Source: a virus. Taken from it: a stretch of 29,944 nt of DNA. The stretch covers positions 1 to 29,944 of IMG/VR virus record IMGVR_UViG_3300027805_000058. One strand, given 5' to 3'. This document shows, piece after piece, positions 1 through 28,870 of this stretch. Positions within the stretch are counted from its first letter, which is position 1; each line of letters begins with the position of its first letter. The translations under genes and the position numbers were made by a program. The notes beneath the pieces were generated by a model that worked only from the letters and a program-made list of their open reading frames with translations, searched no databases and had not been told where the DNA came from.

Positions 1-484
1 CGTTCAATGGCCCTATGCCGAACATGCCAATGTTGTAGTAAATCTTGATCTGCGAGCCTTCACCGCCGTCAATCGTGGCGTCGTAAAAGACTTGGGAATT
101 CACTAACAACGGCGGCAATATGGCGTTACTGCTGGCAACAACAGGGTCGTAAAATACCTGTGTATTGGTCAGCAACTCAGGGGCAATTGTAACCGCCCCT
201 CGCAGTACGCTTGCCGCGTAAAACGTCTGCTCGTTGGTGTACAGACCCGGCAGCAGCGTGTTACTAAACGTCGCTGTCGGACCGTAAAACGTCTGGTCGT
301 TGGTGTAAAACGGCGCCGCGAGGTTATACACAGACCGTGCCGTTAGGGCATAGAAGGTCTGGGTATTGGTATACAGTTCCGGCTCTAGGGTATCGCCCGT
401 TGAGGCCTCACCTAGCAGCAATCCTCCGTCTTCTAGGAGGATATTCCCGCCGTCTTCTAGGACAAGCGGGTCAGTCGCGGGCAT
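1..484 (-). CDS. Repeat-containing phage structural protein, 3' end beyond the left edge
   Basis: An open frame of at least 161 codons starts at ATG 484, 21 bases after the stop of the 135-aa gene, and leaves the window still open. Residues 7-26 carry a LEDGG-x-ILLE-x-GG-x-LL motif. Residues 36-138 are five tandem repeats of about 22 residues with consensus LYTNxQTFYxxTV; the Asn of each repeat is at 40, 62, 84, 107 and 129. Repeats of this TNxxTFY type occur in virion proteins of many phages, and a beta-rich surface or tail-associated role is inferred. It continues the late leftward operon. The Shine-Dalgarno site is weak, so coupling to the gene before it is likely. Exact function is not recognised. 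Confidence 0.8.
   Translation of the reverse strand, partial: MPATDPLVLEDGGNILLEDGGLLLGEASTGDTLEPELYTNTQTFYALTARSVYNLAAPFYTNDQTFYGPTATFSNTLLPGLYTNEQTFYAASVLRGAVTIAPELLTNTQVFYDPVVASSNAILPPLLVNSQVFYDATIDGGEGSQIKIYYNIGMFGIGPLN
71..379 (-). repeat. Five tandem TNxQTFY protein repeats
   Basis: Five in-frame copies of about 66 bp encode ELYTNTQTFYALTA, PFYTNDQTFYGPTA, GLYTNEQTFYAASV, ELLTNTQVFYDPVV and PLLVNSQVFYDATI. The spacing between conserved Asn residues is 22, 22, 23 and 22. The DNA copies have diverged more than the protein motif, which suggests selection on the repeat fold rather than recent duplication. Confidence 0.85.
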
Positions 485-505
485 CGGCACGACTGCGCCT
501 GCCCG

Positions 506-26565: not shown

Positions 26566-27269
26566 ACGTACACCTGCATAACAGTCAAAATGATTGAAGG
26601 AATGGCCGGGACTGGAGGGGCAGCAGCAAATTGTTGCAACTGCACGTCCAGCGCATCCACGGAAAAGTACAACTGAAAGTAATCGCCGTTAGACAACGGC
26701 AAGAAAAAGTTAGCGGCAGAGAAGATTTCGGCGTTGTTGCCTTGAATCTGAATCAGTGACGCAGAGTTGGCTACGTTAGTGCCGTTGATAGCAGGCCAAA
26801 TGTACAGTCGTCCCGTACCGCCCGAAGTCTTGTCTACCTGAATAGAAAACTGGACGTTGTAGATAGCAGGCCGAGTGACCTTAATTTTGCTGCTGTCGCC
26901 GGGGTCACGGTAAACGCCATACGCCGGATCAGCATTGTTGTACGTGATGGCGTAGGCCGTGTTGATGACCGTTGCCGCTTGAGTCTGCGTTGAGAAAAAC
27001 GAACCGTAGTTGATAAGGCCAGGTTCAAACCGAGGCGGCCCTTTTTGCAAATCGTCTAGTTGCCCTTTTACAACCGCCAACTCGTCCTCGACGTTAGCCG
27101 CTAACGCGGGCGTTAATTCAAGATCAGCAATAGTGGTTTGCGTTGTGCCGCCGCCCGTTAATTGAAACTGGTTGTTAAGAAAGCGAAACCACTCACGCGA
27201 AATCTGGCCTGTGCGCTCGTCAATAAACGGCACACGCGGAGCAGGGATTTGCGTAATGTTCTGCGTCAC
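26562..27269 (-). CDS. Tail protein with N-terminal virion anchor and beta-sandwich C-terminus (235 aa)
   Basis: Starts at GTG 27269 (GTGA overlap with the gp10-like gene). The first 45 residues (PAPRVPFIDERTGQISREWF, RFLNNQF) form an adaptor commonly seen at the start of small phage tail proteins. A helical linker (ELTPALAANVEDELAVVKGQ) joins a C-terminal beta domain of about 140 residues that looks like a jelly-roll or C1q-type fold. It probably attaches to the neck and carries a trimeric fibre domain. Family recognition is partial. Confidence 0.8.
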   Translation of the reverse strand: MTQNITQIPAPRVPFIDERTGQISREWFRFLNNQFQLTGGGTTQTTIADLELTPALAANVEDELAVVKGQLDDLQKGPPRFEPGLINYGSFFSTQTQAATVINTAYAITYNNADPAYGVYRDPGDSSKIKVTRPAIYNVQFSIQVDKTSGGTGRLYIWPAINGTNVANSASLIQIQGNNAEIFSAANFFLPLSNGDYFQLYFSVDALDVQLQQFAAAPPVPAIPSIILTVMQVYV

Positions 27270-28870
27270 GACGCCGTACCGCTGATTTGCAGTTCAGCGC
27301 CCATAATGGCGACTTTGACCGGATCGGTGCCGCTAATCTCATACACGCGGTCGCGCAGTTTGGTCGTCATGCCAAGGCGACGGAAGATGGCGCGAGTGCC
27401 GTACTGGCCAATGCGGCCCATGGATACCTGGCGCTCGCCATTCCAAGTGTGGCCGCCGTCATCTGACCAACGCAGCATCAACTGCGGGTCAGCCCCTGTG
27501 GTGGCGTTTACATCCAAAATAATGTCCTGGCCGATTTCTGTTTGCAGGATCTGCAACAACTCGCTGCCCAAAAATTGCTGATCGGTAAACGCATAGCCCG
27601 ATAGGCCGACACCCGTTTCGCAGTCGATTTGTAACGCGTGATGCGCCGTGCGGGTCAGGTTGTTGGCGCCGGTAGGCAACGCACGCCAAGTGCGTAGCCA
27701 CTTTTGCGTGACGCCCGCGTCGGCGTATACGTCAAGGCTAAACGCGTACAAACGTCCGTTTTCATAATCACCAATAATCGGTTGGCCTACAAACCGAGCG
27801 TGGTTGTTGCCGCGATGGCGCTTAAAGTCGCCATTACGGAAACCAGCACGCTCGTGCCAAGCGCCCGTAGCCGCGTCAAACACCCATGTCGTATCGGCAT
27901 CCGTAAAGTTCAGCACGTAGAACGTGTGACCGTCCTGCTGATACGTATAGCCAACTGCGTCGGCAAGGTTGTCGTACTGCTGAATGGCAAACTCAACGGC
28001 ATGGGTCGATACGCGCACGCCTTGATAGCCATTGGCTCGATACACAATGCCCTGACCCCGAGCATCTGCGCCGAGCCAGAAGACAGAGTTGTCCATCTTG
28101 GCTACCGAGTACGGCGCGATGCAGCCGATCTCGTTATAAGCGCCTTGGATGCGGGTGAGCGGAAAGTCGGCGTCGCCGGAGTTGTACCAGACCTCCACGG
28201 AGTTCGTGCCAAACAGCCACGCCTCTCGATGGTCAATGATCAGGGATACTAGCCCGTCTGGTGAACCCTCAGCGCTTGCAAAATCCAAGGGGTCAATCGA
28301 CAAGCCATCCAATAGGCTCGTGACCCAGACACGTTGCGAGTTCGGCTCGTTGAATACAAAGTAACCGTCAAGATAGCCAACGGTCACTGCACCCGGAAAG
28401 TCCTCGTCAGTAATTTGCGCTAGTTCTTCCGTAATAGAATTAAAAATGTAACCGTCTGGGTTGGCGGCAATAAAAATTTGCGTGCCGTTGTCAGCCATAG
28501 AAACAGGGCCAGTGCCGCTGATTTCACCTAACGCCACTGGAGTGTTGTTTTCAGCCAGTAAGTCGCCGCCGCTTTCTAACAATATGTCGCCGCCGTCTTC
28601 TAACGCCAAGTCAACTGAAGCGTCAAAAGTGTCGTCTACCTTAAAAAACTCGTTACCTGAAACAACATAAAGGTAGTTGCCTAGCGACCACAGCCCTCGA
28701 ATCGGGCCAGTGCCATACGTGCCTTTTAACGTCAGGCCGGGGCAGCGTTGCAGGTAAGCAGGCTCCTTGCCGCCCTCGGGAATCACCTCTGGGTAAAGAT
28801 TCACGCATCGGCTGTCGGCTGCATTGACCGACCGGATGACGTACGACGATCCGAGAATCGGCGTCTTCAC
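27266..28870 (-). CDS. gp10-like packaged DNA stabilisation / tail hub protein
   Basis: The 534 residues match the P22 gp10 head-completion family in length and features: N-terminal SSYVIRSVNAADSRCVNLYP and PAYLQRCPGLTLKG, repeated beta-propeller-like strands, GSPDGLVSLIIDHREAWLFG near 200 and a conserved WLGADARGQGIVYRANGYQG. In P22 six copies form the hub that plugs the portal-gp4 channel. It begins with GTG 28870, directly after the gp4-like stop. Residues 88-107 carry a LEDGG-x-ILLE-x-GG-x-LL insertion that also occurs in the first gene of this window. Confidence 0.93.
   Translation of the reverse strand: MKTPILGSSYVIRSVNAADSRCVNLYPEVIPEGGKEPAYLQRCPGLTLKGTYGTGPIRGLWSLGNYLYVVSGNEFFKVDDTFDASVDLALEDGGDILLESGGDLLAENNTPVALGEISGTGPVSMADNGTQIFIAANPDGYIFNSITEELAQITDEDFPGAVTVGYLDGYFVFNEPNSQRVWVTSLLDGLSIDPLDFASAEGSPDGLVSLIIDHREAWLFGTNSVEVWYNSGDADFPLTRIQGAYNEIGCIAPYSVAKMDNSVFWLGADARGQGIVYRANGYQGVRVSTHAVEFAIQQYDNLADAVGYTYQQDGHTFYVLNFTDADTTWVFDAATGAWHERAGFRNGDFKRHRGNNHARFVGQPIIGDYENGRLYAFSLDVYADAGVTQKWLRTWRALPTGANNLTRTAHHALQIDCETGVGLSGYAFTDQQFLGSELLQILQTEIGQDIILDVNATTGADPQLMLRWSDDGGHTWNGERQVSMGRIGQYGTRAIFRRLGMTTKLRDRVYEISGTDPVKVAIMGAELQISGTAS

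Follow-up and report, generated by a model that had tools for sequence, protein, structure and literature searches.

A short octad-repeat module recurs in unrelated phage virion proteins and is linked to one class of tail fibre genes

The stretch of DNA analyzed here, referred to as the window, is an IMG/VR virus record of 29,944 bases. Two of its genes, both on the minus strand, are the subject of this report. The first, at positions 27266–28870, encodes a gp10-like head-closure or tail-hub protein that is matched over residues 3–426 by the profile of PHROG 578 (head closure Hc3, E 9.1e-126). Its AlphaFold model, with a mean pLDDT of 62, matches the structure of P22 gp10 (8eap_D) with a Z-score of 29.5 and an rmsd of 5.0 over 423 aligned residues. 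The second gene, at positions 2–490, extends past the edge of the window, and its product, the left-edge protein, combines a short N-terminal module with repeats of the YTNTQTFY type. At E 1 it has no match in Pfam or PHROG. Repeats of this type (window 2–490 and L090–L128) are found with very different N-termini and C-termini across phages and also occur in a protein of Pseudanabaena phage Pam2.

A first-pass annotation made from the letters alone had pointed to a nearly identical segment of 20 residues in these two proteins, and this holds true. One copy, LVLEDGGNILLEDGGLLLGE, lies near the N-terminus of the left-edge protein (407–466, minus strand; 23.3 bits with the profile described below), and the other, LALEDGGDILLESGGDLLAE, inside the gp10-like protein (28550–28609, minus strand). 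These correspond to residues 9–28 and 88–107, respectively; the residues 7–26 given earlier for the left-edge copy are the same ones counted from the ATG at 484 and not from the GTG at 490. The copies agree at 15 of their 20 residues, and at the DNA level 36 of 60 positions are identical. The local alignment of both host proteins scores 75, a value attained by none of 2000 shuffles of the left-edge protein (mean 36, maximum 69). When the whole record is searched with a degenerate DNA pattern, only these two places match, and the reversed control gives no match.

The gp10 copy had been described as an insertion in an otherwise conserved region, and the alignments agree: window residues 84–110 (28541–28621, minus strand, calculated from the gene start at 28870) stand opposite a gap in the module-free relative L016, a clean insertion of 27 residues with both flanks aligned. 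Among the best 80 matches to the gp10-like protein, 77 cover the insertion site (L032, L033 and L036 do not cover the left flank), and the module is present in 28 of these and absent from 49. The possibility raised with the original observation, that the motif is a universal part of the gp10 fold, therefore fails. In a midpoint-rooted tree calculated without the insertion columns, 27 module rows of 76 are interspersed among empty rows and need three changes, for which one gain and two losses are a possible history. P22 gp10 and PHROG 578 are like the window protein in sequence family and fold; three profile alignments place no insertion at this site in the solved relatives P22 gp10, Pam1 and Pan3. 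Modelling of both segments had been proposed as well. For the gp10 copy, the AlphaFold model has a pLDDT under 50 at residues 85–108.

The description of the gp10-like protein has to be amended in one respect, as a second variable site at residues 425–461 (27488–27598, minus strand) bears octad repeats of a related kind in certain relatives, among them some whose first site is empty. A pair of octads was found there in 16 of 59 parsed sequences, while 22 of 81 could not be parsed, and the window's own second site holds a degenerate octad form at most. With this hypervariable stretch bearing octad repeats in relatives, one hub protein has two sites for repeats of this kind. Examples from relatives (L045, L071, L077, L080) are LLAESGDTLTTESGDSFLV and YLVTENDDFLMTENDDFLVTED.

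The module is built from the unit x-L-L-E-D-G-x-x with a period of eight residues, and its consensus reads xLLE-DG-xx-[LI]LLE-DG-xx-[LI]LLE, with core positions that are partly set by the search pattern itself. From the leucine runs and DG turns we infer a three-stranded β-meander as its putative fold. In viral contigs at least 120 stretches match the degenerate LLEDGxxxLLEDG pattern, and a separate viral scan for the GG form yields 43. In bacterial and archaeal contigs totalling 257 Gb, the LLEDGxxxLLEDG pattern matches 20 stretches, of which 11 lie in an open frame, two of these (L251, L262) being unlike the module. A profile HMM built from 46 family representatives was applied to the 32,848 ORFs found in 361 loci. 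It recovers 205 of them at 16 bits or more, and from 10 bits upwards no reversed decoy is hit. The module is not confined to the two window proteins: 131 distinct module ORFs fall into 48 families of host proteins, in which the module is C-terminal (24), internal (18) or N-terminal (6). These clusters were cut at a blastp E of 1e-3, where single linkage merges some unrelated proteins, and 48 is a count of hosts and not a frequency because the loci were mostly collected via the module itself. Three units stand in register in 32 of the families, two in 13, one in 2 and four in 1.

Some proteins carry two or three modules (L194, L293, L178). Two different module proteins within one record occur in the window and in G036, G012 and G008, the gp10 copy of G008 being outside the strict module pattern. 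The idea that two modules pair within one virion was weakened by the observation that hits lie kilobases apart in only one of 50 module-bearing records (G036); in six further records of the 50 the additional hits are separated by a few hundred bases at most.

Which proteins carry the module? Of 30 family representatives scanned against PHROG, 14 received a functional assignment, and all 14 belong to a virion category, among them central tail fibre J, minor tail protein, head closure Hc1, major tail protein and baseplate wedge. Two assignments are weak, that of L135 resting on an E of 0.0046 and L210 having a weak amidase family match in addition. Together with the gp10-like protein (Hc3), these carriers show that the peptide recurs in many other virion proteins, the search for which had been proposed. 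The sequence preceding C-terminal modules is linker-like (0.62 versus 0.47, p 0.004, 22 families), and several phages of the window lineage have proteins of 54–60 residues that end in the module. For the small carriers scanned, none of the models in Pfam, NCBIfam or PHROG extends over the module. A literature search found no description of it, although the search was noisy and absence from print is not established. Likewise, tblastn of a 22-residue consensus gave no match in named phages, perhaps owing to the low-complexity filter, and is not evidence of absence; the named genome DSL-LC05 (L387) has a weak, drifted module of 8.8 bits.

When the genes downstream of C-terminal modules are listed, many of their products are seen to start with MADxKISxL. 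This N-terminal motif has the form M-x-x-x-KISxL and is often followed by G-x-E-x-x-P-[IV]-V. A KISxL gene lies within 120 bp of 20 of 42 C-terminal module genes (15 of 25 families), compared to 12 of 706 other ORFs of at least 200 residues in the same loci (p 9e-20), a count that is not an independent test because the KISxL regex was drawn from the same downstream genes. In the other 10 of the 25 families the next gene is not of this type. As the sequences are related, p-values overstate independence here and family counts are safer. The 54–60 residue proteins of the window lineage mentioned above directly precede KISxL genes. In P22-like phages (L394, L391, L392, L409, L406) we also observed small proteins consisting of a hydrophobic RNGxAIGLGSII-type stretch, a linker and an octad module directly before KISxL genes; DSL-LC05 has a similar small protein with its drifted module, but a different gene comes next.

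The reverse approach starts from the fibre side. A DNA pattern for MADxKISxL...QGG yielded 118 genes, and the module HMM, which predates this test, finds a module ending at most 150 bp upstream in 30 of them with a threshold of 8 bits and in 25 once it is raised to 10 bits, the lowest value with decoys counted. One of the module-preceded genes (L146) was already in the module sample. A looser octad regex matches 43 of 92 upstream C-termini versus 9 of 2,616 other ORFs, corresponding to 17 of 36 upstream families, but it was written from those upstream C-termini and the count is therefore not an independent test; the remaining 49 of the 92 genes have no octad upstream. Drifted modules upstream of KISxL genes retain the rhythm of E and G, for example LLTESGANLVQENGDYILLE.

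For a second sample, new loci were collected via a different KISxL pattern with the octad regex frozen. It matches 18 of 110 upstream C-termini versus 1 of 2,562 others (6 of 42 upstream families) and 8 of 16,125 short ORFs elsewhere in these loci, and 92 of the 110 genes are without an octad upstream. Where the upstream protein is unlike those of the earlier sets, octads are found in 3 of 66 cases at E 1e-3 and in 0 of 32 at E 1; this sample is dominated by lineages like those already seen. KISxL genes are thus frequent without the module, which is not obligatory.

Some KISxL proteins can be identified as fibres or spikes. The genes after L140, L133, L139 and L289 match PHROG tail fibre families, and a Pfam search of eight KISxL proteins returned a pectate-lyase domain (PF12708, E 1e-15) in one, collagen in one and nothing in five. 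That translation might read through the stop codon of the module gene into the fibre frame was considered but not favoured, as the downstream frame is open for at least 100 codons in 11 of 25 families, which is near one third.

The left-edge gene fits into this arrangement through its relatives. It has 48 viral relatives, of which the nine nearest (L081–L089) retain the N-terminal module and the others start differently. Seven of these nine were scanned, and in each of them the gene that follows has a KIS[QE]L start; in the window the position of the corresponding gene would be past the edge. L081, the relative examined in this respect, has further downstream a second KISQL protein with the pectate-lyase domain PF12708 (E 1e-15). 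Its two fibre-like genes (L081:3571–5073 and L081:6094–7497) have the same KISQL start and are otherwise different, one having a Peptidase_S74-like end that scores below its Pfam cut-off and the other a pectate-lyase fold.

Presence or absence of an internal module at a fixed site is also seen in a family unrelated to gp10, the lambda-gpL-like minor tail protein, which matches the lambda tail-tip L structure 8iyk and whose predicted model (mean 37) is too poor for use; here the loop module is missing in 4 of 28 aligned sequences (L356, L362, L374, L375). Within this family the module has two positions, the YLDAxNF loop and, in L148 (8876–10381), a place closer to the N-terminus; loci L148 and L145 represent this family. 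KISxL-start genes occur in 11 of 16 gpL-module and in all six J-module siphophage records, in one of four other module-bearing records and in neither of two module-free gpL records, with five matches of the reversed control in the 29 records of this comparison; all eight records checked do contain open frames that begin with MADRKI[ST]xL. Among named gpL phages without the module, one of ten has a KISxL match, the atypical MKCGKISVL, against two control matches in 14 records, a comparison confounded by relatedness. Within 150 bp downstream of gp10 (n = 20) or gpL-like (n = 20) modules with room, there is no KISxL gene. Of ten examined genomes whose gp10 lacks the site-1 module, eight have KISxL-start genes, and since such fibres also occur in module-free relatives, KISxL is not discriminating in that lineage.

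The module is real and widespread, is kept at the peptide level and shows a link to a single class of fibre genes. What could a peptide of 20 residues do that is found in unrelated proteins, is gained or lost as a unit and often precedes fibre genes? These properties suggest that it may be a fibre plug. Our main reading, to which we assign a probability of roughly 0.37, is that the module is a mini-tag which would dock KISxL-type fibres onto the virion; the linkage is measured, and the docking is proposed. The earlier suggestion of virion contacts remains plausible and is sharpened by the link to KISxL fibres, with the contact itself being putative. The module is self-contained, with short leucine-rich segments, an eight-residue period and acidic-glycine turns that would fold as a β-meander, and diverse virion proteins bear it at the C-terminus, the N-terminus or in a loop. 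The carrier would present it at the neck, in the tail hub or tube or at the tail tip, in many cases via a flexible linker, and the meander may then serve as the docking site for the N-terminal KISxL anchor of a class of tail fibres or tailspikes. The gene of this fibre would lie directly after the carrier gene or elsewhere in the genome, and where both adjoin directly, carrier and fibre could conceivably bind co-translationally as they are made. In the window lineage, the tail-hub protein gp10 would be one candidate port and the left-edge protein, with relatives that directly precede a fibre gene, the other.

A broader version goes further: the octad module and the KISxL N-terminus might be the two halves of a general plug-and-socket of phages, in which a tag grafted onto any exposed virion protein lets phages of different morphology attach fibres that share an anchor class, whether at neck, tube, hub or tip, and exchange them. 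We regard this generalization as tentative and on balance somewhat improbable.

Unlikely, though the strongest of the competitors, is the notion that the module is a surface ornament, an exposed sticky hairpin that weakly binds the host surface or environmental polymers and docks no fibre. Such a role has been proposed for phage Ig-like domains, which are accessory units too, appended to or embedded in a variety of unrelated virion proteins; the presence or absence of the module, its many unrelated virion carriers, its terminal or loop positions and the preceding linkers would all suit it. However, the position next to KISxL fibre genes would not be expected of an ornament. The module also differs from Ig-like domains, which comprise roughly 90 residues, in its length of about 20 residues and in this link, and Pfam detects no Ig family in eight window proteins and ten proteins of other loci.

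The adjacency itself invites a second alternative, which we consider a rather weak candidate, namely that a fibre cassette recombines between phages and the module forms its upstream edge, becoming the tail of whichever gene comes before it, with a role in gene coupling or none. Module and KISxL genes overlap or are spaced by 0–10 bp, the stop-to-start gap being at most 10 bp in 41 of 43 module pairs versus 30 of 49 module-free pairs, and the upstream proteins are unrelated, as the spread of the module over 17 of 36 families indicates. A boundary would hardly account for the internal insertions in gp10, gpL-like and J proteins, which lie away from any gene boundary, or for a peptide that is conserved when synonymous codons are not. 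Next in rank and also rather improbable is a structural arm, a β-hairpin stabilizing rings or trimers of the carrier with the fibre link being secondary. Two carriers match solved virion-assembly proteins, P22 gp10 (8eap, Z 29.5) and lambda tail-tip L (8iyk), which form rings or trimers. Yet the carriers of 50–60 residues are little more than a hydrophobic stretch, a linker and the module, and close relatives exist without it.

At the level of DNA, a selfish in-frame element such as the Rickettsia palindromic elements or PARCELs would insert into unrelated genes just as the module does. The PARCELs (palindromic amphipathic repeat coding elements) are described (PMC2996958) as repeats of 25 residues, often in membrane-targeted proteins, with dyad-symmetric DNA; judged by that description, they resemble the module as a short amphipathic repeat in unrelated proteins, but the module has a period of eight residues, resides in virion proteins and lacks a palindrome. 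No signal of palindromes or dyad symmetry was detected in the DNA of 46 modules, whose folding energies are close to those of synonymous recodings (mean z −0.17; two modules below −2). Of the 15 residues shared by the window copies, 4 are encoded by the same codon, where 5.6 would be expected, and codon agreement across families is near expectation (4,473 of 13,491 versus 4,299, from 1,035 pairs). The peptide is therefore kept and the DNA is not, and as the carriers with assigned function are virion proteins, a selfish element is very improbable. The first two units within a module do share slightly more codons than expected (125 of 276 versus 105), and this small excess may reflect unit duplication in some families. 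The first-pass annotation had called the module mobile or convergent: recently copied DNA finds no support in the codon and palindrome tests, and the module appears to be convergent or long-diverged and kept at the peptide level, two histories that these data do not separate. Finally, a chance likeness of two leucine- and glutamate-rich stretches of simple composition is practically dismissed by the shuffles and already contradicted by the decoy test, in which 205 ORFs at 16 bits or more face no reversed decoy.

The module was also compared with other known systems. For the bulb-type MMBL lectin repeat, the consensus module aligns to pyocins L2 and L1 at E 0.69–1.5 only. The tail fibre gp22 of crAss001 is reported to dock with its N-terminus (residues 1–26) on a hub of dedicated virion proteins (PMC10172136); the KISxL consensus aligns to residues 25–53 of gp22 with an E of 1.4, which is not significant and not evidence. 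A survey of protein-fragment mosaicism from 2023 describes fragments common to phage proteins of different function (PMC10684548). Its sequence-based definition, as given there, requires at least 50 aligned residues, and a module of 20 residues falls below it for this reason.

How new receptor-binding fibres become attached to old virions bears directly on the evolution of host range. If dozens of unrelated clusters of virion proteins have a tag in common that is genetically tied to a single fibre-anchor class, this attachment would become predictable from sequence, and the module together with the KISxL anchor would provide a defined candidate pair for binding. The shared tag and its link to the anchor would also suggest functions for many small unannotated tail genes. 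More generally, the module represents protein modularity below the 50-residue floor set in that survey (PMC10684548).
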